Assembly (NCBI GenBank): GCA_025765595.1
Contig: JAIVFH010000045.1
Coordinates: forward strand, 124,001-188,000
Length of the DNA stretch: 64,000 nucleotides
From: Obelidium mucronatum
Taxonomy: Eukaryota; Chytridiomycota; Chytridiomycetes; Chytridiales; Chytriomycetaceae
Direction: 5' to 3'
In this document: piece after piece, positions 1 to 59,104 of the stretch
How positions within the stretch are numbered: position 1 is the stretch's first letter
Layout: every line of letters starts with the position of its first letter
The notes under the pieces: model-generated
What the model was told of the DNA's origin: nothing
The model's database searches: none
Seen by the model: the letters and a program-made list of their open reading frames with translations, nothing else
Position numbers and translations under genes: made by a program

Positions 1-684
1 TTCTGTCATGGTTTCTTGCACAACTACTTCTTGAGTGTATCCCTGTGCGCAATCAATTGAAGATGAGAGATGAATACAATGAGAAGGATGGTATGAATGG
101 AGTGATCGATTAACCGCCTTCGGCGGTTGAAACATGCGATGAGAAGTATGGTATGAATGAGCTCTGAAAAGAATACGATTAACCGCCTTCGGCGGTATAA
201 GATTCCGCAAGGGCGGAAATGTCCGAACAACAGCAAACCAAACCTTGTAATCAATACCACCCAAAACGGAAGAATGATATTTAGAATGCAACAAATCATC
301 TTCTTTTGCAACATTGGCATAACGCATTCCACATTCTTTGCAGACTGTAAAACCAGCATTCTTTTGACCCAAATCAAGAACAGTTTGAACGAGAGCGGTG
401 GTAGTTGTTGTTGTTGCAGATAATAATGATGACGATGATGATGATGATGATGATAAAGAAGAAGAAGAAGCAGAAGTAGATTTGCAGCTGGAAGACATGG
501 CTGGTAGAGGAGAAGTCCGGACAAGTTTAACAGATGAAGGAGTTGTCGATGATGCAATAGTACAGCTGGAACTGGAGACAGACGACCGTGCAAAGAAAGC
601 AGTAATCTGCGTTGGAGTTGAGGCTGCGGCTGTTGTTGAGCGTCGCTTAGTCGACGGCGTTGCCAACTGTGAAGACCTCTTCAT
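1..684 (-). CDS. ECO1: Eco1/ESCO-type cohesin acetyltransferase, N-terminal part (runs off the window edge)
   Basis: Reading back from an ATG at 684-682 (starting MKRSSQLATPSTKRRS), the frame holds a Ser/Thr-rich N-terminus and then a C2H2 zinc finger: VCKECGMRYANVAKEDDLLH followed by SKYH, the pattern of the zinc finger that precedes the acetyltransferase domain in Eco1/ESCO proteins. A TPTQITAFFARS stretch ahead of it resembles a PCNA-interacting (PIP) box, though Gln is not in the standard first position. The family acetylates cohesin Smc3 to establish sister-chromatid cohesion in S phase. After GGIDYK (exon end at 244) an intron, about 243-43, carries two GC palindromes. The next exon (42-1) continues KGYTQEVVVQ, matching the GW-x-x-E-x-VV segment after the ESCO finger. 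The acetyltransferase domain lies beyond the left edge. The finger is well supported; the PIP box is inference. Confidence 0.8.
   Translation of the reverse strand, partial: MKRSSQLATPSTKRRSTTAAASTPTQITAFFARSSVSSSSCTIASSTTPSSVKLVRTSPLPAMSSSCKSTSASSSSLSSSSSSSSSLLSATTTTTTALVQTVLDLGQKNAGFTVCKECGMRYANVAKEDDLLHSKYHSSVLGGIDYKVWFAVVRTFPPLRNLIPPKAVNRILFRAHSYHTSHRMFQPPKAVNRSLHSYHPSHCIHLSSSIDCAQGYTQEVVVQETMTE
112..196. repeat. Two GC palindrome elements in the Eco1 intron
   Basis: Two copies of AACCGCCTTCGGCGGT (112-127 and 181-196). Each is a 6-bp stem (ACCGCC/GGCGGT) around a TTC loop. They belong to the dispersed palindrome family seen throughout the window and lie wholly inside the inferred intron. 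Confidence 0.9.
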
Positions 685-842
685 GACAGATGTAAATAAA
701 TAAAGTCAACCAAATAAATAAAAAGACGTTAAATACTGTTACTATTTTATTATTTCCTTCCAATAATGCAACATTTTGACTTTGGCGCATCAGCTCTTTT
801 CCTTAAAGACTTCCGTCTTGAGGGCGTGCAGTTGACCTGCGA

Positions 843-1250
843 TTAGTAATCAGCAATTAGTAATGCGCCAGCACACACACACACACAGCGCGCACCCAGC
901 TGCTGGTCGCTCATCTCGTCCAGCGCGCGCGCGTCCAGCGGCTTGCCGAACTGCGGGCGCGGCGCCGTCCACGCGGCGGCGTCGGCGACCTGCGCGCGCA
1001 TCGTGGCGAGGTACGCCGTCCACTCGCCGACGAACGCCGCCAGCCACTGCGCAGTCGAACCCTGCGCCGCCGCAGTCGAACCCTGCGCCCCCGCCAGCGC
1101 CGCCGCCGCCGCCGCGTCGCGCAGCACCGCGCGGTGCCGCGCCCACTCGTCGCGCACGTATTTGTTGCCGAGGAACCGCATCGCCGGCGGCAGGTGCTTG
1201 TGCACCCGCCGGATGTCGCGGTAGAGCTGGAGGTGCTGGCGGAGGTACAT
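843..1250 (-). CDS. SDHAF3: Succinate dehydrogenase assembly factor 3 (Acn9/Sdh7, LYR-motif protein)
   Basis: Single-exon 135-residue protein. Residues 8-40 (LQLYRDIRRVHKHLPPAMRF, then LGNKYVRDEWARHR) carry the LYR tripeptide and the LP...LG-x-x-YV-x-x-E block typical of SDHAF3. A later FVGEWTAYLATM segment and a GKPLD segment also fit. The family works in the mitochondrial matrix, where it protects the iron-sulfur subunit of succinate dehydrogenase during complex II assembly. Two APC-like repeats, roughly AGAQGSTAAAQGST, lie in the middle. The gene is very GC-rich and rich in Ala/Arg codons, unlike the neighbouring nicastrin gene. The extreme C-terminus (RCVCVCAG) is encoded by a CA microsatellite and may be aberrant. 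It is divergent from nicastrin with only 56 bp between start codons. Confidence 0.85.
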   Translation of the reverse strand: MYLRQHLQLYRDIRRVHKHLPPAMRFLGNKYVRDEWARHRAVLRDAAAAAALAGAQGSTAAAQGSTAQWLAAFVGEWTAYLATMRAQVADAAAWTAPRPQFGKPLDARALDEMSDQQLGARCVCVCAGALLIADY

Positions 1251-1306: not shown

Positions 1307-1729
1307 ATGGTCCACTTCCATCTCCTGATTGCCGCCCTGATATGTCTCAGCCTCGCTGTAGCTCAAAACACTTATATCGAAGGAGGAATCTACCAGCAGA
1401 TCGAGGCCTTTGGCGCCCTGCGCATGCTGAATGCAACGGGAGTGTCTGGACCTGCAAGTAAACAACAACCTTTACCGCACCACAAACTATCGACATTATC
1501 ATCGTTCATCATCATCATCATCGTCATCGTCATCAACCATCCCATTCATTTGATTCTATTTCTCCCCCCTTTTAGGTCCAACTACTTCAGGGGTTGTCTA
1601 TCAAATACTCAATAACGATGATCTAGCTGCTTTCTTGGCTTTCAGTCCTGCTCTAGTAAAGTTTGCTGTTGTCCTTCCATTTGCTCTATTCACTCCGTAA
1701 ATATTTCCTCTTTTTATTTTTTCAATGTG

Positions 1730-1791
<62 letters not shown>

Positions 1792-4415
1792 TCTGATGGT
1801 TTCACAAAAAAAAACAGTGTCGTGCTGGATTCTTTACGAAATTCAAACAAATTGGCTGGTGTTATTGTCATTCAAAACTATGATCCTCTGTTTCCCATTC
1901 CTTCTCAGTATTCTCCTGATGATGCTTTTCCAAACTTTCAATTTTCTCTTTATGCAAATTCTACGAGAGGTTTTCATGCTTGGAATCCTGTTGTATGTGT
2001 GATTGATTATCGCTTTTTATTATCGCTGAAGGCGAAGGTCTGCCGCCGAAGGCGGAATCTTACCGCCGAAGGCGGTATTTTGTCTTTCCGCCGTAGGCGG
2101 TGCTCTACCGCCGAAGGCGGAATCTTAGCGCCGAAGGCGGAATCTTACCGCCGAAGGCGGTATTTTGTCTTTTTGCCGTAGGCCGCCGAAGGCGAAATCT
2201 GACCGCCGTAGGCGGTGTTGTTCTTGTTTGGTCTGTGAAATGGCGGTGTATTCATTTCCTTCATCATTCCTGGATTGATCCGTAAATCAACTCACCAACC
2301 ATCGATATACAGGGAAACGGGATGCTACACAAGTCATTTGATTTCCCAATCTTTGTCATGCCCGTGAATCCAAACGATTTATCATGGCAGCAGTCTGTTG
2401 GTACTTTACTGGAGGTAATTCTTTATTTCCATCCAAAAAGAATCACAGTAGACTTATTTGGGCCAAATCAAACAAATTTGTAGACTGCAAAGTACAACTT
2501 GGATCGCGGATATCAAACGTATCCATTGTATTCTATTGAATTCAACGAATTCATGTATGGATCGATTGATGCTGCCACATGTCTTCGACGAGGTATACAG
2601 ATTTTCCAATCCAAGAACCATCTCCAATGCCATAATTTTTGTATCATCAGGATGGTGCAGCCCTGTTGGAGCGTCATCAGTCTGGGGAACTTTTTCATAC
2701 AACATTTCTCGAAAAGACACTGCTCGCAAAATTATCGTAGTATCCGCTCAATCGGACTCAAACGGTTTCTTTCAGGACTTTGTGACATCTGCCGCTACAA
2801 CTGCATCCGGCTACGTGACATTATTAGCAGTCGCCAATGCTTTATCCCAGGTATACTGTCCTTAACCTCTTAATTCCTTTTGTTGCATTTTGAAAATTCA
2901 TCTTTTCTTTCAAAAAAAAAAAAAGAATCAAGCCGCCGTTTCCAGTCTTCCAAACGATATCCTGTTTACGCTATTCTCTACAGAATCATTCGGTTTCGCT
3001 GGATCCCAAAGATTCATTCAAGATATATCCGCACCCTTCACTTGCATCACGCCTCCCGTAAACTCAAATTCATCCACCAGTTCCTGTGCCTACGTCGGGC
3101 CCTATTGCGCGAACCCATGTCAAGTCACATCTGGATTCACAAACGTTGACTTTAACCGTATCAGTGCTGTTGTTGAGTTGAATCAAGTCAGTGGCGCTGG
3201 GTTGGATGGTTTGACGGGTAGTGGTGGGGATGCACAGATTTATTTGCATGTGGACGATGCCGCGGATGCAGAGACGCAGGAGTTGGTCAAGTTGTTTAGT
3301 ACGGCTAGTGCTGTGACTGCCAGTGGGAGAGTTGTGCGTGCTGGAGCGACTTCAGCAGCAGTCAATGTTAAATTCGGGGCGGCTTTTACTGGGACTGGAA
3401 ATGATGGGAATTTGGGGTTGCCTCCTTCGTCTGCAATGTCGTTTTTGGCGAAACGAAAGATTCCCGCTGTAGTGTTGGGAGACTACCAAACAAAGTATTC
3501 AAACAAGTTGAGTTGTGGGGGATTTATTTTATTGTGTGGTGTGTTCTAACCCTCATTTTATTTTTTTGTTTGCCATGAAGATTCTACAACTCAATTTATG
3601 ATGATGCCTCGCGCATATCGTCGGCAAACATTGCCCTCATGTGTGGAGTTGCTACACAGACGGCACGCTCGGTTTTCCAATTGGCGGGAGGCGCTGCTGC
3701 AGAAGCGGCCAACTTTTCAGCAAATTGCACGTTGGTGGCTGAATTGTTTGACTGCTTCACTGCGAATGCTACGTGTGCCTTGTTTCACTCCATCTATCCT
3801 GGTAAGCTCTTTCCTTCATTGAGTTTCTGTGTATTTTTCTGACTCACACTCTAAAAAAAAAATTACAACCAGGCCAAAAGGTTCCATTTTCAGGAAACTA
3901 CCCTGGCTCCTTCCAACAACAGGCCTTCACTTCAGTCCCACCATACATGATGTACAGTCTCCTCGCCAACTACACAGCGTCAAAGCGAACGCCCAATGCT
4001 TGCGACAGTATATCCCAACCAAGTTGTGGAAGCGACCCAAACGCTATTTGTGTGGTGAATACATGTGTCTTGTCCCAAACGAATCCGCATTTCGCGTATG
4101 GAACTGGTCTCGAAATGGACTACGCTACAGGGTTTTATAAAGTTGTGGATCCCAAGAAGGGGACATGGGTCCAAAGCAAGTTGAGTGACAGTTCTATATA
4201 TTAATTTCGTTTGAACCATAATGATTTCGGTTTTTTGCTAATTCCGACTCGAAAATTTTTGCAGAGCCAATGGAGATAATATCCGGATCAGAACTTTCCT
4301 TTCATCTTCACCGCAATACCAAGGAATGCAAATTGGTGTTGGTTTGGCGTTGACGCTTGTAGTCACAGGAGTGACGTACTATATTCAAAGATATGTAGAT
4401 GCTAGGTTTAAATAG
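1307..4415 (+). CDS. NCSTN: Nicastrin, gamma-secretase substrate-receptor subunit
   Basis: Multi-exon gene. It starts with a signal peptide (MVHFHLLIAALICLSLAVAQ), followed by the nicastrin lectin-like lobe and peptidase-like lobe. Recognisable blocks are CSPVGASSVWGTF and KIIVVSAQSDSNGFFQD (2670-2780), TESFGFAGSQRF (2985-3015, aligning with ETFDYIGSSR; the Glu is kept but DYIGS reads GFAGS), and NLGLPPSSAMSFLAKRKIP with a following VVLGDYQTKYSNK (3410-3510). A Cys-rich stretch (SQPSCGSDPNAICVVNTCVL) and a C-terminal membrane helix (VGLALTLVVTGVTYYIQRY) end the protein. Nicastrin is the type I membrane subunit that gates substrates for presenilin. Introns include 1451-1575, one with a (GT)n run, one with GC palindromes, and several of about 50-100 nt. 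A presenilin gene lies 29 kb away. Family assignment is strong; exact splice sites are approximate. Confidence 0.88.
1733..1788. repeat. (GT)n microsatellite in a nicastrin intron
   Basis: A near-perfect run of about 27 GT units sits between the exon ending FALFTP (donor GTAAAT near 1698) and the exon starting VVLDSLRNS. It serves as part of a short intron. Confidence 0.9.
2025..2215. repeat. Cluster of GC palindromes in a nicastrin intron
   Basis: About eight tandemly spaced CCGCCGAAGGCGG-type elements, with GAA or GTA loops and a few shortened copies, separated by TATTTTGTCTTT- and AATCTTA-like spacers. They fall between the exon ending HAWNPV and the exon starting GNGMLHKSF. Confidence 0.9.
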
Positions 4416-4595
4416 TCGGGGGCTGTTTTTTTCTTCTGTTCCTTCTGTGTTTCTTTGTCTTTCTTTTTTTGCTCATCATATAAATAAACTCCACAACTTT
4501 TATTTTTTGGGAAGAGTTTGTTTTTTTTTCTTGCAAGACTACTGTAATAATAATTCTGGCTTTTCATGCATTCCTCTTGTGGTTCTTTCTCCGCT

Positions 4596-5157
4596 ATTAA
4601 TGATTCAATCCAAAGTCGCGGGAAATCCGGGCTCCCATCAACTGTTGATGAAAGGAATCCAGACCAACAAAAAAAAAAAAAAACACATCAGAAGATGCGT
4701 TCGAAAGTTAAAAATAATAAAAATAAGACGGGGGGGTTTTGAACCTCTGTAAACTTTGAGGATTGCCCATAAAACTTGTTTGGCATTTCGTGTACGGTGG
4801 GAGCGTATTGTCCATATCCATGGGATGTAGTCATGTACATTGGGTTCTGTTTCTTGGGCTCGTATTGCCAGGCACCTAATTTTTTTTTTTTTTTTTGTTC
4901 AAGTCAGTGACGTAGTATTCTTGCCAGCCTTTCTTTATGCCGGTGGTTACTCAAATACGAAACACCCCACACACACACCCAGACATACCTGGACACTCGA
5001 ATCGGCGTGGCAGTTTTGTTTCGCAGGCATAATAATCTGAAGTGCGCGTTCCTTGTTCATAGCCAGTCACAGTTGGCTTTGGAGGCAGCTCTTTCTTGAC
5101 TGGCTTTTGATGGAACTGATGCTCCAAAGGCATCTTGAATAGCTTTGGTTGTTCCAT
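4596..5157 (-). CDS. PIERCE-type ciliary microtubule inner protein
   Basis: Exon 1 (5157-4989) encodes MEQPKLFKMPLEHQF and ends TSDYYACETKLPRRFECP. It splices (CCAG|GTATGT; acceptor TTAG before 4876) to GAWQYEPKKQNPMYMTTSHG followed by YGQYAPTVHEMPNKFYGQSS-KF. The pairing of SDYY...LP-x-RF with NPMY-x-T-x-x-x-YG-x-x-x-PTVHEMP-x-x-FY is the signature of the PIERCE1/PIERCE2 (C9orf116/C15orf65) family. These proteins pierce the wall of ciliary doublet microtubules and bridge outer-arm dynein docking components to the inside. A third exon ending in ARISRDFGLNH and a stop at 4596 is likely but its acceptor is uncertain. The gene is evidence for a flagellated zoospore. It is divergent from PSMD5 with 141 bp between starts. 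Confidence 0.8.
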
Positions 5158-5298
5158 GTGTGTGTGTGTGTGTGTGTTTTTTTTTTAAAATGCAATCTTG
5201 AAAGAATGGGGAAATCTGATCAGAGTTATTATTATTTATTTTATTTTCAACGATCGAAGATAAATATTTTTTTTAATTTCAAAACATCGGAAATCAAA

Positions 5299-5861
5299 AT
5301 GACTGTACAAGAGACAAGCTTAGAGTCTTCGCTGACTGGACTTTGGACTGACTTAACTCATCTATCCAATGCATCATCGACGCCATCTGATTCTGCGCAG
5401 GTGGTTTTCCTTGAGGGGTTTTCGTTTGGTGTGGTTTTTACTAACTCCACAGCCCAAAAAAATAGGCTATGGTGCGATATCTGTCGGACAAGCAATTGAG
5501 CGTCACAGACTTTATTGGAGTTATTGTTTCGGCGCCCAGCGAGGAAGCCGTAGACGTGGCTTGCAAGTGCGTTGTGATTGTGTGTCGAGTTTTGGGTCTA
5601 CAGAACATGCATGAGGTGAGAACTATTCATTGCTAGGACTTTTTTTTGGCTAATTATTTGCTGTGTTTTTTTCTCTCTACTGCTTCCTTTCGTTAGAGTG
5701 GGTTGATTGCAGATGGCCTGACGCATCCAGAACCACGCGTTCAAAATCTTGTCCTTGAACTCCTGTTGGATGCGTCCACGCCGAAAGAGGTAGAGCAAAG
5801 AAAACAAAATGCAACATGCATTCAGTTATGAATTCTGAAAGGTTAATTGGGAACTAAATTG

Positions 5862-5901
<40 letters not shown>

Positions 5902-6331
5902 GATTTCAAGCTACGCCTCCACCACCTACCCCAGATTATCGAAACCCTTGCAACCCCATCCACGATAGTCTCCAAACACGCCACCACACTTCTCCTCCAA
6001 ATCGCTACATCCACTGCCACAGTACCAGCATCTTCAAACCAACAAGGAACCCCCTTCTTCACACCAGAAACAGTCTCCCAATTCACATACTTTCTCCAAC
6101 AAAACGCAACTCAATCAGATCAAACAATCTCGCTCCGCGTTTCAGATCTCCTCATCAAAATCGCGAGCCAAAGCCCGATTCTGTTTGAAGCAACCGAAGC
6201 TACAGGGTTATTGGATACATTGATCAAGGAACCACTCAACTCAAAAGATATAATGACGAAACTGAATACAATCGAAATCTTGTCTGGGCTATTATTCCCG
6301 CCTGCACCACCACCCGCGAATGTTGTGGTGT

Positions 6332-6368
<37 letters not shown>

Positions 6369-7312
6369 AGGAGTTGGAGATGATGATGACAACAACATTG
6401 CCGGATTCCAATTCCTCGAAAAGAGTGGCGTTTTTTCATGTATCAAGGCATTCATGGCACCCAAACAAAAGTCTCTTGATATCGAAGCGCGGTTGCTCCA
6501 AGTCTCGGCCATTGGATTCTACGCGCGGCTGTCAGTTTCCATGGCTGATTCGTTGGTTGTCTTGGAAGACGCATATGGATACTGTGAAACGATATCCAAG
6601 ATCCTTGTGACTGATTGGAGAGGTGACGACGACGACGATGACCGAGTCGTTTCGGCGGAAGTGAAGGAAGCGTGTCTGTTGGCTATAGGAAACGTGGCGA
6701 GTTCTGCAAGGAATGGGTTGGTTTCGTTGTTGGAGACGCGGTTCCCGGATGTGTTGCAAGTGTTGGGGGAGATGGTTGTTGGGTCCCATCAGGGACGGCT
6801 CAAGGTTGTGGCGACGCAGAGTTTGAGTTGTGTTTTCGATAACGATGTAGGTGATGGTGATGAGCAAGTGTCGGCGATTTGTGGTCGGTTGTTTGATCAA
6901 GTTGGGGGATACAGTGGGATTCTGAATATGATGAAATCGTATGATGAAGAGTTGCGGGTTGCTGGGTATGCCTGTTTGAAGGGGGTTTGCAAATATTCTT
7001 GGGGATTGACTGGGTTGAGAGAGGCGGGTCAATTCATCAATTTTGTGCTGGATCGTGCTACAGAGACGTCTCAGTTGGGAATGGTAAACAGAGACTTAAG
7101 TTTTATTATGTCTAGTTCTGGACCACTCACGTTCTCTCGCAATTCTTTTTTTTTTTTAGAAATGGAGGTTTTCTGTGGCAGAATCAATTGCTCGTGATTC
7201 AAAGGCAAGGCAACTGCTTCCTCCAGTTGTTTTCGAAAGATTCTTGAAATTTGCAAAGGAAGGGCCTTTCTATGTGGAAGCACAGCCCCAAGTTGCCATG
7301 AGCTCAATGTAG
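5299..7312 (+). CDS. PSMD5: 26S proteasome assembly chaperone PSMD5 / S5b
   Basis: Exons: 5299 onward (MTVQETSLESSLTGLW), AMVRYLSDKQLSVTDFIG, SGLIADGLTHPEPRVQNLVL, a long exon from about 5906 (LHHLPQIIETLATPSTIV) to 7083, and a last exon ending EGPFYVEAQPQVAMSSM. The armadillo/HEAT-type repeat layout and the C-terminal FLKFAKEGPFYV block match PSMD5, which caps the Rpt1-Rpt2 module during assembly of the 19S base. An alanine run and an acidic DDDDNN stretch are inserted near residue 230 relative to typical members, encoded by (GCA)n and (GAT)n repeats. An exceptionally long T tract (about 5863-5900) is the polypyrimidine tract of one acceptor. Introns are otherwise short. Confidence 0.82.
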
Positions 7313-7707: not shown

Positions 7708-9641
7708 TCAAGCTTCCATCATATCCAAATCAATCAGCTCTCCTCTGCACTTTGAGTTGACAATCTCTCTTCGAATCTCTGGGGTAATCAACGGATGCGA
7801 TCGATACTTTATAAGATCCAAAAGCGCCTCCTTCTGCTCAGGCACAAGCTCCCCTTTATACCTCTGCGCAAAGACAAGCAAACTCTGATGCCACAGCACC
7901 GGCAACGCTTCCAACCGCGACTCCTCTGTCGCCGAGTGTTCCGAGATTTTGAAGCGCAAGAAATGGAAGACGAGCGAGTCCAAGACCTTGTACGGCAAGG
8001 CGTACTTTTTGTCCAACAAGATCCGGATAAAGAGACTGTTTGGTCCACTGTAGTGCATTTCTGCGATTTTCAAGAGGGCTGCTGCAGAGTCGAGGATGGG
8101 GATGGATACTTTTGTGATGACTGAGCCAATGATGGCGGCTTCACGGAGTGTGCATGAGCCGGACTGTTTTTTTTTTTGTTGTTTTTTTTTAGGTGGTAAT
8201 AGTGTGTGTGTGAGTGAGTGAGTGAGAGTGTGTGTGTGTGTGTGTATGTGTGTGTGTGATTGTATGGAAAAAAAGACATTCACTGTCTTTGGTGGAATAA
8301 AGAAATCTTAAATTCACCGCCTTCGGCGGTATGAGTCCGCAGTATGAAAAAAAGGAAAAGAAATTCACCGCCTTCGGCGGTTTGTGAAGGCGGTTTGTCT
8401 CACCGCCTTTGGCGATATGATTCGGCAGTATGAAAAAAAGAAAAGAGATTCACCGCCTTCGGCGGTTTGCATCACCGCCTTCGGCGGTTTGTCTCACCGC
8501 CTTCGGCGGTATGAAAGAAAAGAAATTCACCGCCTTCGGCGGCATCTCATACCTCACACAAAGGAAGCAACAAACCCTTAAAAAAAGCAGCAGGCTTATA
8601 CAACGACTTCTTCAAAGCCAAGTAATGATGATAATTCAACTTTTTCGTTTCCGCAATATCATCCCTCACACGATCCAACAAAAACAGATTAAAAAAGCGT
8701 TGCGCCATTCTCGCTTGCAAGTTTGAAACAAAGATACGCGTTGCTTGGTAAGTAGCATGCGGGGTCCAACCGGACGGATTGGTCAGGTACAAGACTTGTT
8801 CCCAGTTGGGAAGACTGGGGATGATTTTGAAGGCTTTGGGCAGTTTTCCGGACCGGTAGCGGGACATGATGACGCCGACTTTTGAGTAGACTTCAATGAT
8901 TTTGGGGTCCAGGTTGGAGGAGTCCTTGTATTGGTTGTCGAGGAGTTCCTTTTCTTTGGCGGGATCTAATGGTTCGGTGGTGGTGGTGGGGGCGTTGGCT
9001 GCTTCACTGAGCTTTTCCATAATCAAATCGGCCAGGTTGAGTTGTTTTCGGGGTTCCTTGGCCATAAACTTTTCAATGAGTTGGGCATCTGCTTCGTCAA
9101 TGTCCAGATTGGCTTCGTATTCGCCGTCCAAGTCGAAATCGGGGTCATTTTGATCAAGAGCTTCATCATCGTCTTCATTGTCGGAATCAGCAGAATGTCC
9201 TTTTGGCTTTGTTTGGAATTTGAACTGAGCTTTCGCGACGGCACTGGTGGATTTTTTAGTCTTTTTTGAAGCAGCAGCAGCAGCCGCTGATGATGATGTT
9301 AATGATGATGTTTGTGGAGATTCAGATTCGTTGGATTCTTCGAGTTGTTGCAACTTTGCCAGATTCATAATCTTTTGCGACGTCTTGACATCGACCATCC
9401 GGTGTGAGTCTTCATCGACATCGATATCGTCATTGTCGTTGTTTGAAGATGATATAGTTGCGGTAGTTGGAGCAGTTGGCTTAGCCGCCCCGGCCTTCTT
9501 TCCCTTCTTTGGACCTGCGGCATCGACGCCCACGGCGGCCGCCAGCGAGTGGGTGAAGGGCGAGTCGTTGATGATGTCGACATGCAGCGGGTTGTGGCGC
9601 GGCGCAGCCTTTGTCTTTGAGGTCTTTGACGCCTTGCCCAT
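7708..9641 (-). CDS. ENP1: Bystin / Enp1, 40S ribosome biogenesis factor
   Basis: Two exons, 9641-8553 and 8163-7708. The first encodes [20 protein letters not shown], an acidic low-complexity N-terminal region and then the conserved core [43 protein letters not shown] and [17 protein letters not shown]. The second starts [20 protein letters not shown]; the spliced [12 protein letters not shown] junction matches the bystin core. Enp1 binds the 20S pre-rRNA side of the 40S head and is needed for cytoplasmic and nuclear steps of small-subunit maturation. The intron (8552-8164) contains a block of GC palindromes, a GT/GA microsatellite and poly-T. The first roughly 160 coding bases are GC-rich. 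Divergent from mL46 with 99 bp between starts. Confidence 0.92.
8314..8562. repeat. GC palindrome cluster in the ENP1 intron
   Basis: At least seven CACCGCCTTCGGCGGT-type elements, one with a TTT loop (CCGCCTTTGGCGA), separated by AAAAGAAAAGAAATT-like spacers. The last copy almost abuts the 5' splice site at 8552. Confidence 0.9.
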
Positions 9642-9740: not shown

Positions 9741-10798
9741 ATGAAGGTGGCCGTGCTCCTCGCGCGCAACCCGGTGACGCTGCGGCGGCTGACGCCGTTC
9801 GAGACGGCGTACCTGCAGCACCGCGATGCGCTCGCGCTCGGCAGCGCCAAGGGGTTCGCGCACGAACACTTCTTCAAGCGCGGCTCGCTGCTGCAGACCA
9901 AGTGGCTTGCGCTGCACGCGCGCCTGCCGCACTCGACGCCCGCGAAGCCGGCGCTCGCCGCATCCGCCGCCGCTGCCGCCGCCGAGGACGAGTTTGCCGC
10001 GGCGCTCGCCGAGATTGCCGCTGCCCAGCCGCTGCTCGCCGCGCGCGACACCGACGTCACGTCGCTCGACCGGCGGCTGCCCGACCCGCTGTTTCTCGTC
10101 GTCAAGAGCGCCGCCACGGGCGTCTGGGAACTGCCGGCCGCCGCGCGCCAGGGCAAGGACCTGCTGCACGAGGTGCGTGTGTCATGCACGAACGACGATA
10201 TTGGACAACGAATGATTGATGATTGACGCTTGATGATTGATGATTGATGTTGCATGAACAATGGATCGATGGAACGATGGATCGATGGATACAAATACTG
10301 CCATCCTGCACAATACTGCTCTCTTGGATCGTCAAACTTGTAGTCGTCTTACTTGGTTATTTTCATGTCTTTTATAGGCGGCAAAACGAAGTATTGAGGA
10401 AACTTGTGGGACAAAAATGGAAACCTGGATGGTGGGAAAGATTCCTGTCGGTCACATAGTAAAGTCGGATAAAGATAAAGTAAGTATATTCTTTTATTTA
10501 TTCGTTTATTCATTCATTCATTCATTCATCCATTACGCCGAAGGCGTGTCTTTTTTTTTTTTTTTTTTTTTTCTTTTTTTTTTTGTATATGTGATTATTT
10601 TTGATGTCATTATTTTTGATGTGATTTGTTTCGACTTCTTCTTACCATCCATTTCGAATCACTAGACATTCATTATGAAACACTTGATTCTATCAGGTCA
10701 AGTGGTCCTGAATCCTAAACTAGTATCGGATCATGCATGGCTGACTAAATCTGAAATGGCCGAAAGGTTGGATAAAGAGTACTTTGAATCTATTCAAG

Positions 10799-10831: not shown

Positions 10832-10949
10832 GCGGGGGGTTTTTGAATTGGATTGATGAAAATTGAATGAAAAAAGAAATTTATTAAAATAAATATATTG
10901 CACTGGGGATATCTACGCCGAAGGCGCATTATCTACGCCGAAGGCGTAT
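10535..10949. repeat. TACGCC-GAA-GGCGTA palindromes in and after mL46
   Basis: Three copies of a stem variant with T/A in place of the inner C/G: one in mL46 intron 2 (about 10536-10548) and two just past the gene (about 10914-10927 and 10932-10950). Both arms carry the change, so pairing is kept. Confidence 0.85.
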
Positions 10950-15425: not shown

Positions 15426-17566
15426 CTAAGGTCGCCAAGTTATCACTGCAATTGCTCTCTTGGCAACATCACGAATTTGTGGGTTTTTGGCGTGAATAGA
15501 GAATCCTTCCAACTTTTTTTTTTTTTTTTTCAAAATAATGTGATAAGTAAAAAAAAAAAAAAAAAAAAAATTGTCACCTTCTTCACACATGAGTGGAGTT
15601 CAAAACGGCCACGATAATCTTCAGCCACATTTGTAATCACCTGGTGTTTGATTTGTAAATAAAAGTTGATAAAAAAAAACCCCCCTGAATAGGGCAAAAA
15701 TTTTCACCTTGATTACATTAAGAACAACCGACTCATTCAAGTCATCCAACAGCTCCATCAAAGTTTGAACAGCATTTTCTCGTACAAACAGTTTCTTGGC
15801 CTCGCAATCAATAGTGATACTCATCAAAGCACCAGCAGCTGCCGCTCGCACAGGGCTTTTCATGTCACTCAACATGTGGATCAGGATCCCAATTGTTTCT
15901 CCTTGACATGCAATTGTTTTGCAAACCTTGTAGAAACTTTAAAAAAAAGTTTTTTTTTTTAAACAAAACCAAAAAAAAAAAAAAGAAAAGAAAAACGTTG
16001 GAAATTACCTGAGCATCATGATACACTTTGCAGCAGCGACTCTCGTTTCCGCGACAACTTCCTTTTTTAAAATTCTCGTGAACGCGCCCATGGCATCGCA
16101 CTTGATTGGAACTTCTGGCATGTACTGAGCCCCGCCCATACGGATACATTGGTACAGGGTATTCAAAATCATGATTTGGATATCCATTCGCTCTTCAGGA
16201 AGGCGTTTGACTAGTTGCGGGACAAGTGAGAATTGTAGGAGATTGAGAACGCCTGGTGGTGTGTGTGTTTTTTTGTTGATGGGGAAAGAAAAAAAGGTTG
16301 GGAACAAAGAGACTAGAAAGAGACAACGACGACGACAACTTGCCTGCTTCTTGGCATGTGACTTTTTCGAATACTTTGTGAACGTTGCTGCGGACAAGGT
16401 CACAGCTGTCTTGGAACTGTTGCGTTTTTTGGAGAATGTTTTAATGGTATTGTTTTTCTTTCCTTAGTGTGTTTGTGTGTGTGTGAAAATATCGAGAAGG
16501 CGGTAAAAGAGCACACTGTCTATGGCGATAGGCGAATATAAAATGATACAACGCCAACGGTGGTGGGTATCTGCCTTCTATGGATAATACACCGCCTGCG
16601 ACAGTAAGGCGTCGCCTTGCCTTCGGCAATATGAATTCTGCCTTCGGCGGTATGGTAGAGAATATAAAAAAAGAATATATTGCCAAGGTGGTGGGGAATC
16701 GCCTTCGGCGATAGAAAAGAAAAATCGCCTTCAGTCGTAAGCGGTGGTCACGCCTGCGGCGGTGAAATAAAGAAAGAACAAAAGAAGAGATAAATACACC
16801 GCCTACGGTGGTAGGATTCCGCCTGCGGCGGAAAGAAGGAAAATATGGTAGATGGTGGTAGAGAATCGCCTTCGGCGATTAAGTCCCGCCTACGGCGTTC
16901 GAACAAAAAAACAAAACAAAAAAGAGCAATACCAAAGGAGAAAGAAAAAATAAGGCATCGTGATGAACAAGAACGGTTCGACCGACGGCATGGCCTAAAA
17001 CCATATAAAAAAAATTAGTGTGAGTACACAGCACATTGACTTCAATTCTAAACAACAGACATGAAATAACGGCCAGGCACTCAGTAGCCTTCTGCTTGAT
17101 TGTCAAATCATTGGATTTAATCAAGTCGAGACAAAGTTTTACGATATCTGCAGAATATCAAAAATAAAATAAAATAAATATAAAAATAATATAAAAATAC
17201 AACAACAAAAAAAAAGTTACCCTTTTTCAAAGCTTGAGTGATATTTAGTGGATTATGAAGCAGCTCTGCGAGAAAAACAAGCGACTTTTGCTGTTTGATC
17301 AAATCTCCTTCAGGAATTTCAGTCACCTAAAGCGAGATTATTAGCGGGATAACTCTCTCACTATTTCACTGTTTTTGTCTCTTTTTCCTTACCAGTTTTG
17401 GAATAGCGCGTCGTCCGTAAGCGAGTTGCATCTTTGTGGGATCGACATTGGCCGGCAAGGTATACACGAGCAGCTTGCTCGCTTCCAGCGGCGTCAAGTC
17501 CGAGCGGTTCAGCTCCTGGGCAGTCCATTTCTTTGAGAGTGGCGTTTCTGGGGTTGCGGAGGCCAT
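15426..17566 (-). CDS. RSPH14: Radial spoke head protein 14 homolog (armadillo-repeat axonemal protein)
   Basis: Exon 1 (17566-17392) encodes MASATPETPLSKKWTAQELN and then PANVDPTKMQLAYGRRAIPK, matching the RSPH14 N-terminus (DIDPT-K-x-x-x-AYG-x-RAL-K). Later exons give TEIPEGDLIKQQKSLVFLAE, IVKLCLDLIKSNDLTIKQKA, CHAVGRTVLVHHDAL, CDLVRSNVHKVFEKVTCQEA, VLNLLQFSLVPQLVKRLPEE, an exon with KCDAMGAFTRILKKEVVAET, and a last exon ending DVAKRAIAVITWRP. The ARM repeats and HAVGR motif fit RSPH14/RTDR1, a radial-spoke component of motile cilia. One intron (16343-16253) uses a GC donor (CAG|GCAAGT) with a normal AG acceptor; any GT alternative breaks the frame. Another intron carries a palindrome block. 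The gene supports a motile zoospore. Confidence 0.82.
16497..16900. repeat. Degenerate GC palindrome block in an RSPH14 intron
   Basis: About ten elements with diverse stems and loops (for example TCGCCTTCGGCGA, CCGCCTGCGGCGG, ACCGCCTACGGTGGT), several imperfect. This is the most diverged cluster in the window, consistent with an older insertion. Confidence 0.8.
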
Positions 17567-17637: not shown

Positions 17638-20600
17638 ATGGACGACGGCAGCACGGACGCGCCGCTGTGGCTGCACAACGCCAAGAACGCGCTGGCGGCG
17701 TCGGCGGCAGTGCGCGTGCTGCGGCTGCGCATCGCGCACGAGCTGCGCACGCGGCTGCACGCGGCGCAGCGGCTGGACGCGCACGCGCTGGCGCTGCTGC
17801 CACGGCGCGACCGCGACGCGCTGTTCAAAGCCGCCGCCGACGCCGTGCTCGCCGACGCCGCCTTTGCGTGCGTCGACGCGCCGCCGGACGCCGCGCGCTG
17901 TCTGTGGCTGGACATTCGCGCCGTTTGTTTTTGTGTTTTTTGTTTTTTGTTGTGTCTGTGTCTGACCGGTCGGCCAGGAGGCGGAGGCCGCCGTCGACGA
18001 GCAGCTGGGCATTGCCATCGCCTCGGCTTTGCTCAAGAACCGCGAAGGCTCAGGCTCAGGCGCAGACACGCTCGAGGCAAAGGTGGAAGGAAGAATCTCT
18101 CTCTCTTAAACTTTCTTCCCATTTCTTACACGCTGCTGTTAGATGAAACTGGCAAAGAAGGAATCGGAATCCGGAATCATGCACTTGCTGGGGAAATATC
18201 CAGACAACAGAATAGCCTTACGCGGATGCATCAATGTCGCTTTATCACGCGATTTGAGGAAGATGGCTTGGCTTGCTTGTTTATCCGATAACGACACTGC
18301 CAAAGGTTTTTAATATTCTTGCCTTTTTATTATGATTTTTAAATTCCCCCCTTTTCGAACAGACTTTTTCAACTACATCAACACAAAGCGGATACAGAAA
18401 AATACTGCTATATATGGAACAACTCTTTTTCACATGTAATGAGGCGGTGTGTTGTTACCGCCGAAGGCAGTGTATTCTCCTTCTTTTATGTTTCAGCCAA
18501 AGACAGTGTTACCGCCGAAGGCGGTGTGTTATCCTTCTTTTTTTATATATTACCGCCAAAGTATTCCATGTTCCAAAATCTCTCTTCTTTTTATGCTCAT
18601 ACTCTTTAAAAAAAAAACACCCACCAGCTGTCAATCGTTTCTAGGAACTTTCCCCATGCTATACCAACTCGCAAGTCAATACCGCGTCATCAAAAGAATG
18701 GAACAATCCCTAGGCTATCTAATCAGTCAAAACTCTATCCCCCATCTACGATCACTAGATCTAGCAATCGAAGCCCTTCCAGAAGATGAACTAACCCAAC
18801 GAAACAACCCAACACGAGCACACCCTGAACTCGCTCAATTCCAGTTACTCAACGAGGAAGGGAACTTGCGGCGTCGACAAATGATGCTCATGGTTCCCTT
18901 CTTGAAGGCTATTGAATTGGATGACGTTGATGTTTCACATTCGAATGCATTGGGGAAACGAAAAACTAAATATCATGATGAGGATGGAGAGTTTAATCGA
19001 GTTGTGGTTGCTCGAGCTGCGGAAGGCGATTCGTCGTCGAAAGACTGGCTCAATGTTTTCTATGCAAATGAGGATGGAAGTCGGCGAAAGAAACATGGAT
19101 ATAGTTTGGATTGGGATGAATCGAGAACTGCACGGATAACAGAAGTCTTTTCTCGGTTCTGGTCCATTATTCCATTCAATTGGAGAGAAGAAGGGGATTT
19201 AATGGTTGAAACGATTGCTGCAGATGTCGAAACCTATTTGCACAAGGAAGATCCAGATTTGTATACATTTTTGGCGAAATTGCTAGGAAAAGGTGAGCGA
19301 GCGTCTTGAGTTTAATTGAAACCTCATCCACGAAAAAAAATATTTTTTCAACCAGGGGCGATTGGTCACGATTTCTCTGGTTTCCGCAAATACATACGGC
19401 ACATGATTGGTGATGTTTTTGTTGGGAAATGCAACTTGAGTGTTTTGTGCTACATATTCGATCAGCTTGTGATTGCCTCATTTGAGGCAACAGGAGATGA
19501 AAAGTTTCCATCAATGGACACTCTATGCGCATGGATCTGTGGGTCAATGATTATTCAAATGAAAGATAAAATCATGAACTGTACTTCGGTGAGCAGATTT
19601 TTTTTTTTTCATCTTTGCATTGAAAAAAAAAAAAACAATCATAAAGGTTGAAGATTTGTACCCAGTTTCAGCCATCCATCAATCCGCAATGACCGTCAGC
19701 ATCCTCTCAACAACAATGGAAGTACACTTCCTAAGCAAATTCAGAGCCAGTCTAGCCGACACGTACCCCGTGCCCTCCCCATTTATTGATTTACCAAACC
19801 ACGTGTTTGGATACAATGCAACAGCGCCTTCACTCTGGCCCGTCGAAAAAAAGAATTCAGAATTGTATGAAAAGATGGTCTTGTATTTGACAAATTGCCG
19901 GCGAATCGAGGAAGGCAAAAAGAAACTCGGGAGTAGACAAGACAACACGTCGCCATTGAGTGAACAGGATCTCGTGTTTGCAGAGTCTGAGGAATATGTG
20001 TTGTTGAAGGAGTTTTATATTGAAAAGAGGAGGAAGGAGAGGAGGTTGAAGGAGTTGATGCGAAGTACTTTTTTTTTTTATTTATACTTTTTTTCTTTAT
20101 TGCTTCTTTTTTTGTTAACTAACCATTTCTCTCAAGAATGGAGATCATTCTCAAAAAGTCTAGCACTCTGGGCCGTCTATGTAAAACGAGTGAAAAAGAA
20201 AGTCGCCATTCGAGCACAAAAAAGTCTGGAAAAGGACAGAATCGAACGTGAAAGATTAAGACAACTCCAATGTAAGCGATCGCAATTTCAAGAGCCGAGA
20301 AAAAAAAAACAAAACTGGGGAGGGGGGGGCGACGGCCGTTCTCACTAAAACCAATTCTTTTCCTTCTCTTTCCTTAAGTGGAAGAGGAATACAGACGAAA
20401 ACAAGCCGAACAAGATGAAATGGGATCCTCATTCCTACATCGCCTCATCAACAAGGACGAAGACGACGGTCCGTATGGAGTATGGGGAGACGACAATGGT
20501 CTCTTGAATGACGACGACGACCTCCATATGCATTCTACGGATTCATTTGGACTTGGAAACGATCCACTGTTTGCTGAAGAGTTGCGGAGGCAGGAAGCGC

Positions 20601-33647: not shown

Positions 33648-36105
33648 TTAAACATAAATCATCCCACTACCTCCAACCTGTCCAACAACCAACCAACTCT
33701 CCGCATCTTGCTGATACAACGGGAACCCAGGAAGCGTACTCAAGTTATTCACAAACGGCACCAAACACAATCCAGTCGTAAAGTAAAACAAGAGACCAAA
33801 CGCAATTGAAAAGGGAAGCGCGGGAAGTGCTTTTTGCCAAATCACGAGTAAAAAGATTGTAAAGTTGAGACCTGTGAGTAAACCGATTGTCACGGCAGTG
33901 GTAGGAACCCAATCAGACAGAGCTAAGATTATAAAAAAGAAGAAAAGGGTTACAGACAGAAACCACGAAAAAAAACAGAGACAAAATTACCTGCACGAGA
34001 TGCCAGAACACTGTAAAACACGAAATCTCCAAGTCCCAACTTCATTCCTCCATCATCTTGCTCATCGTCTTCATCGTCATCTTGAATGTCTACTTGTCTT
34101 TGTTGTTGTCGACGGGGGGGCCCTGCCTCCTCATCATTCACAGCTGATGTTGGAGATGAAGGTCCAGAATTGTTGTCGACTTGATTGGTATTGCTCTTTT
34201 TCTTGTGAATGACTTTCATTTCCGTTTCTTCGCTTTCTGGCTCGCTTCTCTTGTTATTGTTGTTGTTGGTGCGGGTGGTATCAGGAGTGGCCATCATTGT
34301 TGTGGGTCCGGCTTAAAAAAATTTTTTTTTAGCGTTTCATTATAAATGCTGAATTAAGAAATAATATTATTTACCAGTGTATAATAAAGCAGGTATCTCT
34401 CGATTCTGATTCTTGGATGTCTCAATCAAAAGACGCAGCGGGCCGTACGGGCAAAGCACCGCAATTAAATCTGTGTGTTTTTTTTTTAAATTTTTGTGTT
34501 AGAAAGGATTAAACGAGAAGAATTACAAGAACGTTAAAGCCCTTACCCCAAACCGCTAGAAGCGCAAGCAAGATCCAACTTGTAATTGGTGGAATCGATG
34601 GATTGGTGAGCATATACGCCTAATTATTCATTTGATGTTTTTTTTGATTAGTTGAAGAAAGATGACGACACTCCGCAGAAAAGAAAGAAAAAAAAAAGAA
34701 CAAACAAAAACAGAAACACACACACACTCACTCACCATCATACTACTCATCAAAACAAGATAAACCTGCTGCAACCACAACGGCCCCTTCCAAAACACAG
34801 CGATAATCCCGACAGCAGAAAAGTTCCAGAGAAAGAAAAAGAAGGAAATGTAGTCAAAGGGGACATTGTAGAGCCACAGGAGCATTGAACTAATGTAGTA
34901 TCCAAAGAGACCGAGAACACCGAGAATAATGAATCCAAAGATGCCATAGAGAATCTGTTTTTTGAGGGTGTGTGTTTAGAGGTGCGTGTGTGGGGGTGTG
35001 ATTATGTATGTATGTGGTATGATTATGTATGTATGTGGTTATGAGTGGCAATGGTTGACGGTATGAGTGGGCATGAGTATTCACTTTGACCGACAGAACG
35101 GTGTGACACAAATTCATTGGCATGATGGAGAAAAAAAAAGAATTCATCGCCTTCGGCGATATTTTGATACAAAAGAATTCATATCGCCAAAGGCGATATA
35201 CTATGGCGGTGTGATACAAAAGAATTCATCGCCTTCGGCGATATAAAACGGTATAAAGAGTCATCGCCTTCGGCGATATACTGGGCGATATACTACTACG
35301 ACAGTTATGATACAAAAGAATTCATATCGCCTTCGGCGATATACATCGCCTTTGGCGATATATAACATCGCCTTTGGCGATATGCACATCGCCTTTGGCA
35401 ATAAAGAGTACACAAACTAACCTTCATACAATTATAATAAAACAAAACAAAAATCAACAAGGTAGCCCCCACAACGGACCCCAAAGTCTTGAGAGCCATC
35501 AACAAATCCTGATGCTGTTGTTCGGCCGACTCATTATTCGGATTAGCCACAGTACCCGAGATGGAAGAGTTCACATTCCCACCACCAAAGTTGAGAGCAT
35601 AGATATCGGGTGGTTGCAAGACATGAGCGCCGGACCAGTATTGGGCGGGAGGGTTGAGTAGTTTGACCCACATGATTGCGAAAAAGATGCATGCAAGGAC
35701 GGGTTTGAGGATCTTGTAGATTTGGGAGAGGTAGTATTTGAGGTCGTCGATGGTGTCCATGTTGAGAGCGAATGGCCTCTTTCTTTTCTTGGTGGAGTTG
35801 GTTGAGTGTTGTCTGTTGATGATTGGAGATGCGGAGCCAGTTGAGGCGGCTGATGAGGCCGGTCTAGAATCCTGATGATATTGTTGTTGTTGATGGTGTT
35901 GTTGTTGTTGTTGCTTGGAATGCATTTGATTGTCCTTCTCTGATGATGAATGTTGTTGTTGTTGTGTATGAGATAGCCTGTGGATTGGCCAGTGATCCCT
36001 CTGGCACGCCTCTGAGCAGTACTTTGCGGCATTGACATCCTCGGCGCCGCCTGGACACAGACTGCAAACAAACTGGGCGCTGTTTGCACACTGCGAGCAC
36101 TTCAT
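33648..36105 (-). CDS. PSEN: Presenilin, gamma-secretase catalytic subunit, with N-terminal MYND zinc finger
   Basis: Exon 1 (36105-about 35423) starts with a MYND-type finger ([15 protein letters not shown]...[15 protein letters not shown]), then Gln/His-rich linker, then the first membrane helix ([18 protein letters not shown]) and [17 protein letters not shown]. After a 470-nt intron with palindromes come [40 protein letters not shown], and [20 protein letters not shown], where WDLIAVL holds the first catalytic Asp (YD in animals). Later exons give [20 protein letters not shown], a long acidic loop, the second Asp in GLGDFVFYS, and the PAL motif [17 protein letters not shown]. All hallmark motifs are intact, so it should be an active intramembrane aspartyl protease working with nicastrin, Aph-1 and Pen-2. 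The protein ends [10 protein letters not shown], longer than animal presenilins. The MYND finger is in the same exon and frame as the first helix. Confidence 0.9.
35140..35404. repeat. ATCGCC-TTC-GGCGAT palindromes in the presenilin intron
   Basis: About eight copies of a stem variant where the outer C-G pairs are A-T and T-A (CATCGCCTTCGGCGATAT), some with TTT or AAA loops, spaced by AAAGAATTC-type sequence. Both arms are changed together. This locus uses almost only this variant. Confidence 0.9.
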
Positions 36106-52423: not shown

Positions 52424-52469
<46 letters not shown>

Positions 52470-54930: not shown

Positions 54931-55410
54931 GAGGTAGTAATTCAACCGCCGAAGGCGGTAAAGACAGTGGTACAGATGATACCGCGTTTGGCGGTTATAT
55001 CCCGAAACACCCAAAAGAAAAGGAATGAGGTAGTAATTCAACCGCCTTCGGCGGTAAAGACAGTGGTACAGATGATACCGCGTTTGGCAGTAATATCCCG
55101 AAACACCCAAAAGAAAAGGAATGAGGTAGTAATTCAACCGCCTTCGGCGGTAAAGACAGTGGTACAGATGATACCGCGTTTGGCGGTAATATCCCGAAAC
55201 ACCCAAAAGAAAAGGAATGAGGTAGTAATTCTACCGCCTTCGGCGGTAAAGACAGTGGTACAGATGATACCGCGTTTGGCGGTAATATCCCGAAACACCC
55301 AAAAGAAAAGGAAAGAGGTAGTAATTCAACCGCCTTCGGCGGTAAAGACAGTGGTACAGATGATACCGCGTTTGGCGGTAATATCCCGAAACACCCAAAA
55401 GAAAAGGAAT
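54931..55410. repeat. Five-copy 96-bp minisatellite carrying GC palindromes
   Basis: The word GAGGTAGTAATTC recurs at 54931, 55027, 55123, 55219 and 55315, exactly 96 bp apart. Each unit holds an ACCGCCTTCGGCGGT palindrome and a diverged ACCGCGTTTGGCGGT partner 25 bp on. Copies differ at only a few positions (for example CAACCGCC against CTACCGCC at the fourth). Confidence 0.95.
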
Positions 55411-55671
55411 GGGTTCGGCGGTAGAAAACCGACTACGTCGGAAGAAAACCGCCTTCGGCGGTAGAAAACCGACTACGTCGGAAGAAAACCGCCTTCGGCG
55501 GAAGAACACCGCCTTCGGCGGTAAAGAACCGACTACGTCGGTGGATAACCGCCTTCGGCGGTAGAAAACCGACTACGTCGGAAGAAAACCGCCTTCGGCG
55601 GAAGAACACCGCCTTCGGCGGTAAAGAACCGACTACGTCGGTAGTGATAACCGCCTTTGGCGGTAAAAGAA
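55411..55671. repeat. Alternating CCGCCTTCGGCGG and CCGACTACGTCGG palindromes
   Basis: Tightly packed elements every 13-25 bp, alternating between the standard stem and a second stem (CCGAC-TAC-GTCGG), each kept palindromic. The whole stretch is repeated as an approximately 130-bp unit (GTAGAAAACCGACTACGTCG at about 55421, 55460 and 55560). Confidence 0.92.
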
Positions 55672-55767
55672 AAAAAAGAAATCAGAGATTATTCCAGAGA
55701 TTATTCCAATCCAATTTTAATAATTGAAAAAAAAAAAAAATAAAAAAAAAATAAAAAAAAAAAAAAT

Positions 55768-57249: not shown

Positions 57250-57324
57250 TTTTGTGGTTATCTTTTTTTTGAATCTGAAACAGAAGCATTTGTAATAATA
57301 AATAAATTATAATAAATATTTTAA

Positions 57325-59104
57325 ATGGGTTAAGTCACTTAATCACTTCCTTCTTTTTTGCTTGCTTGCTTGTTTGTGCTGCATTCAGTCACTCACTCAC
57401 TCACTCTTTTCTTCTTTATTTTCTTTATTTAGACTCTGAAGGCATTCGTAATAGAAGGCAGCAAAAAACTACTCCTGCTGTTCAAGATGATGATGATGAT
57501 CATTCTTCTTCTTCTTCTTCTTTTACTCCAAAAACTACGAAAATATCATCGAATGATGGTAATGATTTGGTCAATTCATTTTCTTTGTCAAGGCTTTTGA
57601 TGCCTCTTGCTTTGATGATCTTTATGGCCTGTGCTGTTGTTGGTGTATGTGTTTTTTTTTTTTTTTTCATTTACCGCCGAAGGCGGTGTTTTACCGCCGA
57701 AGGCGGTGTTTCTTTTTACTCTTTTTCTTCTTCCACCGCCGTAGGCGGTATATTCTTTTTTTTCTTCTCCTTCTTCCATCGCCGAAGGCTGTATTCCACC
57801 GCCGAAGGCGGTATATTATTTTTCTTCTTCTTCTTCTTCTTCTTCCACCGCCGAAGGCGGTATTCCACCGCCAAAGGCGGTATTCCACCGCCGAAGGCGG
57901 TATGTTCTTTTTCCTCTTCTTCTTCTTCCACCGCCAAAGGCGGTATATTCTTTTTTTTCTTCTTCCACCGCCGTAGGCGGTATATTCTTTTTCTTCTTCT
58001 TCTTCTTCCACCGCCAAAGGCGGTATATTTTTTCTTCTTCTTCTTTCACCGTCGAAGGCGGTATTCCACCGCCGAAGGCGGTAAATTCTTTTTTTCTTCT
58101 TCTTTCCACCGCCGAAGGCAATGTATTCTTTTTTTTCTTCTTCTTCTTCCATCGCCGAAGGCTGTATTCCACCGCCGAAGGCGGTAAATTCTTTTTTTCT
58201 TCTTCTTTCCACCGCCGAAGGCGGTGTATTCTTTTTTCATCGCCGAAGGCTGTATTCCACCGCCGAAGGCGGTATATTATTTTTTTCTTCTTCTTGTTCT
58301 TCTTTCACCTCCGAAGGCGGTATTCCACCGCCGAAGGCGGTATTCCACCGCCGAAGGCGGTATATTCCTTTTTTGTTCTTCTTCTTCTTCTTCTTCTTCT
58401 TTCACCGCCGAAGGCGGTGTTTTACCGCCGAAGGCGGTATATTCTTTTTCTTCTTCTTCTTCTTCCACCGCCGAAGGCGGTATATTCCTTTTACTCTTTT
58501 TCTTCTTCCACCGCCGTAGGCGGTATATTCTTTTTTTTTCTTCTTCTTCTTCTTCTTCTTCTTCTTCCACCGCCGAAGGCGGTATATTATTTTTCTTCTT
58601 CTTCTTCCGCCTACGGCGTCCACCGCCGAAGGCGGTATATATATATTTTCCATCTCCTTCTTCCACCACCAAAGCCGGTATATTCTTTTTTTCTTCTTCT
58701 TCTTCTTCCACCGCAAACGGCGGTATTCCACCGCCGAAGGCGGTATATTCTTTTTTTTCTTCTTCTTCTTCCATCGCTGAAGGTTGTATTCCACCGCCGA
58801 AGGCGGTATATTCTTTTTTTTTTCTTCTTCTTCTTTCACCGCCAAAGGTGGTATATTCTTTTTTATCTTTTTCTTCCACCGCCGAAGACGGTATAGATAT
58901 GTTTTTTCGTCTTCTTTGTCCATCTTTTCCTTCTACCAAAAACAAAAAACCACTTTTTCCTCTCACATATCTTATTCTTTCTTCTAGATTGCGCTCCTTC
59001 AAAAAGACATTTCAAATGGAATCAATGATTTTGTAAAGATGGTTCAAGAAAGGCAGAGTGCTGGACGGCCATTGAATATTGTTGAACGCGAGATTCGGCT
59101 TTGA
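57325..59104 (+). CDS. Small single-pass membrane protein with three alternative last exons
   Basis: Proposed 110-residue product. The first exon would be only ATGG (57325-57328, donor GTTAAG), joining to 57433-57644 (DSEGIRNRRQQKTTPAVQDD, poly-Asp, Ser run, then LLMPLALMIFMACAVVG). It then joins, across a 1.3-kb intron ending CTAG, to 58988-59104 (IALLQKDISNGINDFVKMVQ, ERQSAGRPLNIVEREIRL). All junctions are in phase. A hydrophobic segment across the splice (MPLALMIFMACAVVGIALL) is a membrane helix; the acidic Ser-rich part would be on one side, the basic tail on the other. The micro-exon start is a weak point. Family unknown. Two more copies of the last exon follow at 59211-59327 and 59476-59592. 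Confidence 0.55.
57670..58893. repeat. Palindrome and TTC-repeat array filling one intron
   Basis: About 35 ACCGCCGAAGGCGGTATATTC-type elements separated by T(4-9)CTTCTTCTTCTTCTT runs of variable length. Loops are GAA, GTA, AAA or AAG; a few stems are degenerate (CCGCAAACGGCGG). The array shows higher-order duplication: the words CATCGCCGAAGGCTGTATTC recur at about 57778, 58150 and 58238. Confidence 0.95.

Follow-up and report, generated by a model that had tools for sequence, protein, structure and literature searches.

A family of 15-nt hairpins with a three-base loop, oriented with the host gene in the introns of a chytrid

The window and its hairpin clusters

The window that we have studied is a whole stretch of 64,000 nucleotides (nt) of contig JAIVFH010000045.1 (G000:C45:124001-188000), which belongs to an assembly of 48,324,481 bases (48.3 Mb) in 694 contigs. 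Its genes encode nicastrin, bystin, chitin synthase and presenilin domains, according to domain matches, and an RNF14-like protein has 52–55% identity to proteins of Podochytrium, Siphonaria and Rhizoclosmatium. Judging from these domains and identities, the window belongs to the nuclear genome of a Chytridiales chytrid. Scattered in it we find a small element, a 15-nt hairpin of the form NNCGCC-loop-GGCGNN; its three-base loop is usually GNA on one of the two strands. What is new here is that in introns this GNA strand is nearly always the sense strand of the gene.

Besides the window, forty other loci with elements (L001–L040) were analysed. Genes were predicted on both strands with a finder of our own, based on a three-periodic coding model and splice-site matrices. 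It was trained on the window and L001–L020 and then run on L021–L040. The final gene model scores the bases of the elements neutrally; it began from the paths of an earlier model which penalised elements in exons. The clusters of the window are listed below, called sense when the GNA-type loop lies on the sense strand.

113..196, minus strand: 2 elements with GNA on the minus strand, in a predicted intron of a minus-strand gene at the window edge
2042..2216, plus strand: 8 elements (6 GAA, 2 GTA), sense, in an intron of the nicastrin gene; the Pfam match Ncstrn_small spans the junction
8316..8543, minus strand: 7 elements, sense, in an intron of the bystin gene; the Pfam match Bystin 199–505 spans the junction at 363
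10534..10548, plus strand: 1 element with an ACGCC stem, in an intron of the MRPL46-like gene as judged by eye (intergenic in the gene model)
10914..10948, plus strand: 2 elements with an ACGCC stem, 3' of the plus-strand MRPL46-like gene
16637..16899, minus strand: 7 elements (TTC, TGC and TAC on the plus strand), sense, in a predicted intron of a minus-strand ARM/HEAT gene
18457..18525, plus strand: 2 elements, sense, in a predicted intron of a plus-strand gene
35146..35402, minus strand: 8 elements with T-A at pair 5, seven sense and one antisense, in an intron of the presenilin gene
54945..55664, minus strand: 12 elements (11 on the minus strand, 1 on the plus strand), between the 3' ends of a plus-strand and a minus-strand gene
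57673..58852, plus strand: 27 elements (26 on the plus strand, 1 on the minus strand) with T/C-rich spacers, in an intron of a plus-strand gene as judged by eye

All nine clusters listed in an earlier note on this DNA are present, although the note spoke of at least ten. The largest array, in 57673..58852, is flanked by exons near 57432–57647 and 58989–59105, in a region which the gene model left intergenic. The cluster in 54945..55664 includes tandem units of 96 and 40 nt and stems of the form CCGAC-TAC-GTCGG. In positions 55429–55642 the 40-nt unit alternates this second stem with CCGCC-TTC-GGCGG; the loop of CCGAC-TAC-GTCGG is also GNA (GTA) on the other strand. A peculiarity of the window is that nicastrin (1350–4300, plus strand) and presenilin (33648–36105, minus strand), two subunits of gamma-secretase, are found about 30 kb apart in this chytrid, each with a hairpin array in an intron.

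Number, placement and orientation of the copies

The palindromes were counted against reversed patterns in the assembly and against shuffled sequences in the window. The core CGCC-N3-GGCG is found 5782 times in the assembly (reversed control 1050), the longer form ACCGCC-N3-GGCGGT 2343 times (control 7) and ACCGCCGAAGGCGGT 1212 times (control 0). In the window there are 74 copies of the core, against a mean of 0.5 in dinucleotide shuffles (maximum 2 in 50 shuffles). Stems of at least 5 bp with a loop of three and at least four G/C in the inner five pairs also number 74 (shuffled 6.06, maximum 13); when all stems of at least 5 bp with this loop are taken, there are 143 (shuffled 78.7, maximum 97). 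These controls rule out chance palindromes. Nor will any GC hairpin do: the excess lies in the CGCC core and in loops of three bases. Loop length is strict, with 405 loops of three bases, 3 of two, 11 of four and 14 of five around the CGCC core in the window and L001–L020. The same core is found in unrelated spacers across the genome.

Our searches agree with the description of a dispersed and uncharacterised nuclear family. No description of it was found in the literature, in searches limited to open-licence papers; among the papers searched, the 13-base core string stands in one, on Mycobacterium tuberculosis. The contigs of IMG/VR and GTDB gave no two-copy match which could indicate a viral or bacterial source (single copies were not sought there), and a search for a mitochondrial match found no COX1-bearing contig in the assembly. 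Rfam has no match in the window at the gathering score; below it, the antisense strand of one array resembles Gut-1 with 30.7 bits of the 50 required (E 0.0011).

In the window and L001–L040 we could orient 600 elements: 480 are in the 93.1 kb of predicted introns, 109 in the 40.0 kb of intergenic DNA and 11 in the 195.0 kb of predicted exons. This distribution rules out that they are coding repeats. The near exclusion from exons that the earlier note described is thus supported; of the 78 elements of the window two are placed in predicted exons, and each of these has an imperfect outer pair. Introns which contain elements are a minority and have a median length of 557 nt (n=47), against 93 nt for introns without them (n=271). 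Their position is also characteristic. In 34 of the 47 predicted introns with both ends visible the first element is at most 56 nt from the 5' splice site, with a minimum of 7 nt; the last one always ends at least 30 nt before the 3' splice site. The elements would therefore occupy the insertion-tolerant part of a short intron.

The stem is palindromic, so that the two orientations differ by the loop and spacer alone. In the set of introns where the rule was discovered, the GNA-type loop lies mainly on the sense strand in 26 of 29 element-bearing predicted introns. In a first set of loci taken after the rule had been noticed all 9 introns were sense (124 of 127 elements), and in a second set all 10 (42 of 43 elements). 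Overall 45 of 48 predicted introns are sense (binomial two-sided 1.3e-10), with 442 of the 480 elements. When the junction is spanned by a single Pfam match, which is independent support for the intron, all 8 introns are sense (137 of 141 elements): they belong to bystin, the nicastrin small lobe, PH (L009), ClpS (L006), semialdehyde dehydrogenase (L019), Nic96 (L017), GH35 (L004) and GH9 (L012). Three more genes, with matches on both sides or in two stretches, behave in the same way, with 7 of 8 elements sense in presenilin, 15 of 16 in PP1 (L002) and 29 of 32 in G-alpha (L018). Where a predicted intron holds just one copy, this copy is sense in 7 of 7 cases, one of which (L008) is in a doubtful prediction of 2.2 kb. 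The three antisense exceptions appear by eye to be intergenic:

L001, 4455–4872: between a plus-strand gene which ends near 4328 and a plus-strand gene which starts near 4986
L001, 6056–6151: 3' of the plus-strand gene which starts near 4986
L018, 7177–7285: between a plus-strand open reading frame from about 7594 and the start (about 7025) of the second minus-strand G-alpha gene

They were judged after they had been recognised as exceptions, and the figure to use stays at 45 of 48. The region of L018 in positions 4145–9818 has two tandem G-alpha genes on the minus strand, with the small plus-strand open reading frame and a hairpin cluster in between.

Intergenic arrays are likewise uniform in orientation, and they follow no rule when their neighbours lie on the same strand: L010 and L011 are sense, L001 4455–4872 and L015 are antisense. 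Around the stem the GNA strand is rich in T, also in the intergenic cluster of L001, and the polarity of the spacer may be the oriented feature. A splice-site cause of the orientation can probably be dismissed, as the stem is identical both ways and a difference is found only in the loop and the spacer. With a palindromic stem, an orientation given by the loop and spacer indicates that something reads the sense strand, either as RNA or as displaced DNA. The orientation by host gene and the position within introns, as well as the co-variation and the six-pair limit of the stem described below, go beyond the earlier note.

Loop, stem and arrays

Among the 2343 ACCGCC-N3-GGCGGT sites the loop is GAA in 1212, GTA in 644 and GCA or GGA in 283, so that GNA loops make up 2139 of them (91%). 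AAA and ATA together account for 164 (7%) and every other loop for 40. Of the loops proposed at first (TTC/GAA/TAC/GTA), GAA and GTA are confirmed, to which GCA, GGA, AAA and ATA must be added. In the first 100 listed sites with a GCA or GGA loop, 31 are GGA. GTA, a transversion from GAA, is more frequent than GGA, a transition, which suggests that simple mutational decay of one ancestor would be insufficient to produce this distribution.

By the rule given in the part of PMC4686876 which deals with DNA mini-hairpins, these are extraordinarily stable when a C-GNA-G loop sits on GC pairs. The family follows this rule in 2139 of the 2343 sites, where two or more GC pairs of the CGCC/GGCG core carry the C-GNA-G loop, and its C-GAA-G form was rightly recognised in the earlier note as a GNA-triloop mini-hairpin. 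The same part of that paper also permits GNNA loops, which are nearly missing here: there is one GAAA among the 11 four-base loops of the window and L001–L020. Energy tables do not discriminate between loops; they give an equal value for every triloop tested, in RNA and in DNA, and thus speak neither for nor against the rule.

For the stem we fixed pairs 1–4 (CGCC/GGCG) and a family loop, which gives 568 copies with 472 distinct 31-mers in the window and L001–L040. Pair 5 is Watson-Crick in 87.3% (shuffled mean 52.8%) and uses C-G, T-A and A-T; pair 6 is Watson-Crick in 71.2% (shuffled 45.0%) and uses A-T, T-A, C-G and G-C. At pairs 7 and 8 pairing falls below the shuffled level, with 18.9 against 30.8% and 14.8 against 26.4%. 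The outer pairs 5 and 6 therefore co-vary and pairing ends, on average, after six pairs. The stem of 5–6 bp described earlier should be corrected to this value; the three-base loop stands. In 20 of 41 sources (the 40 loci and the window) pair 5 is found in two or more compensated types, so that the family is more than copies of a single palindrome. In the assembly ATCGCCGAAGGCGAT, which is fully changed, occurs 138 times and outnumbers the half-changed forms: ATCGCCGAAGGCGGT, with G.T on the GNA strand, is found 59 times, and ACCGCCGAAGGCGAT, with A.C on the GNA strand, 22 times (reversed control 1). On this strand G.T exceeds A.C at pairs 5, 6 and 7 (26:8, 24:6 and 136:49), an excess which is suggestive only.

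The spacing between successive copies has peaks at 19–22 nt (204 intervals) and 34–44 nt (169 intervals). As in minisatellites, there are head-to-tail arrays of a short unit; single copies also occur, and arrays range from 1 to dozens of copies. It is clear that arrays grow by unit duplication. Two arrays are very long: one with GCA loops in C22:331107-333957, with a period near 78 nt, and one with ATA loops in C56:159841-164203, where the steps measure 228 and 289 nt. In L035, positions 1663–2070, a 44-nt unit contains a GCCGCC-GTA-GGCGGC hairpin and an ATCATCATC spacer and reaches the edge of a predicted exon.

In three of the loci examined, which did not include control loci, tandem duplications adjoin a cluster: L001, L015 and about 58.9–59.6 kb of the window. 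In L001 a 206-bp block is duplicated with 93% identity and has hairpins between its copies, which is compatible with either insertion or loss. In positions 58931–59628 of the window the last exon and the end of the intron are tandemly repeated with 84.8–93.8% identity, beside the 1.2-kb hairpin array.

Interpretation and related elements

The explanation that we favour, although tentatively, is a nuclear, selfish-like hairpin mini-element which is maintained in introns only when its hairpin lies on the sense strand. Its copies lie between genes and in introns, single or in arrays, and grow locally by tandem units of about 19–22 or 34–44 nt. New clusters would be seeded by single units that move and not by independent origin. 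To be propagated or tolerated, a copy would need a single strand that folds, as indicated by the loop rule, the compensated outer pairs and the stop at six pairs. In introns it would persist only with the GNA hairpin on the sense strand, which corresponds to the nascent RNA and to the non-template DNA that is displaced. The constraint probably concerns a single strand, the transcribed sense strand. The other orientation may be purged by an ultra-stable GNA mini-hairpin on the template ahead of RNA polymerase II, or alternatively by a C-UNC-G hairpin in the pre-mRNA.

Several points weigh against this explanation. RNA and non-template DNA share their letters, so that the data do not choose the level; the loop rule leans to DNA, whereas the bias confined to introns leans to something linked to transcription. 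The movement of elements is a supposition drawn from the sequence of one assembly. Among the intron elements 38 of 480 are antisense, some of them in mixed arrays, and the G.T excess is missing at the inner pairs 3–4 (8 vs 9 A.C in the window and L001–L020). The gene models are home-made, and their intron predictions contain errors such as skipped exons. The sample of loci is not random, as L001–L040 were chosen for containing elements. Finally, array copies are related, so that the shuffle margins overstate significance.

An element which acts at the RNA level is a possible but somewhat unlikely explanation. A protein would bind the C-GNA-G triloop in the pre-mRNA and affect splicing, retention or decay; arrays would raise avidity or compact long introns. 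The sense orientation in introns, the strict three-base loop and the compensated six-pair stem agree with it, and proteins which bind triloop hairpins are known, such as Roquin. The RNA of the bystin intron is also predicted to fold better than each of 100 shuffled sequences (z -8.36), though the predicted fold pairs neighbouring units with each other. On the other hand, most introns have no element, intergenic copies have both orientations, arrays vary from one copy to dozens and no common function of the host genes is apparent (this was judged without a statistical test).

Expansion of DNA coupled to transcription is quite unlikely. The GNA mini-hairpin on non-template DNA displaced in an R-loop would drive local duplication, while the opposite orientation would be static. 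The coincidence of the loop rule with that of DNA mini-hairpins, the tandem arrays and the duplications which adjoin three clusters fit this process; it predicts mixed orientations in single intron copies, which are already sense in all seven cases, and intergenic arrays too are uniform in orientation. It is improbable that we are dealing with ordinary minisatellites which contain a palindrome by accident, are homogenised locally and are tolerated outside exons. They would show peaks of spacing such as those found here, but the same core appears in unrelated spacers throughout the genome and in single copies, its stem changes are compensated with two or more types of pair 5 in about half of the sources, and its orientation in introns follows the gene. 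A double-stranded binding site with dyad symmetry, for instance for a transcription factor, would explain a palindrome with a conserved GC core; it is hardly conceivable, since the loop triplet is asymmetrically constrained and follows transcription in introns, and the outer pairs change jointly to any Watson-Crick pair.

The selfish-like hairpin that we favour has relatives in appearance. Tiny palindromes with many intergenic copies are found as GC clusters in yeast mitochondria and as REP palindromes in bacteria; these are organellar or bacterial, whereas the chytrid family is found in nuclear introns and has an orientation rule. It is similar to the double-hairpin elements of Allomyces mitochondria and the palindromic repeats of Fusarium mitochondria, as far as they are presented in PMC7218506: they are short, GC-rich, dispersed, non-coding hairpins, and neighbouring DNA is rearranged, here in three loci. 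It differs from them in that it lies in introns of nuclear and not mitochondrial genes, has one hairpin per unit with a three-base GNA loop, and is sense in spliceosomal introns. On this evidence it resembles mitochondrial hairpin elements and REP palindromes and appears to be a member of none.

Fungal introner-like elements, in the accounts available to us, are also structured sequences which have multiplied in introns in the sense orientation. An introner makes up a complete intron and brings its own splice sites, whereas the chytrid units have 15 nt within introns and are also intergenic; such an identity is ruled out, as they start at least 7 nt inside the intron and end at least 30 nt before its 3' splice site. 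The d(C-GNA-G) mini-hairpins resemble the family in that their GNA loop sits on GC pairs and has C-G as its closing pair; they appear in PMC4686876 as a chemical motif used in aptamers, while here we have a genomic family in which GNNA loops are nearly missing. Roquin CDE hairpins, from what their descriptions contain, share the short stem and the three-base loop and are read as RNA; they are elements of animal 3' untranslated regions, unlike the intron and intergenic units of the chytrid.

In this family natural hairpin arrays follow a rule that chemistry has established for DNA mini-hairpins. The choice of strand amounts to three loop bases and a spacer, and in introns it tracks transcription. 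It may even be, although we consider it unlikely, that a mobile nuclear hairpin spreads via the transcribed strand, as RNA or as DNA displaced in an R-loop, is accepted in introns in the sense orientation only and uses the GNA triloop as a recognition signal. If true, it would be to our knowledge the first of its kind in the nucleus of a eukaryote. A 15-nt element makes a question directly testable: whether the structure of the transcribed strand decides the survival and spread of a repeat in a nuclear genome.

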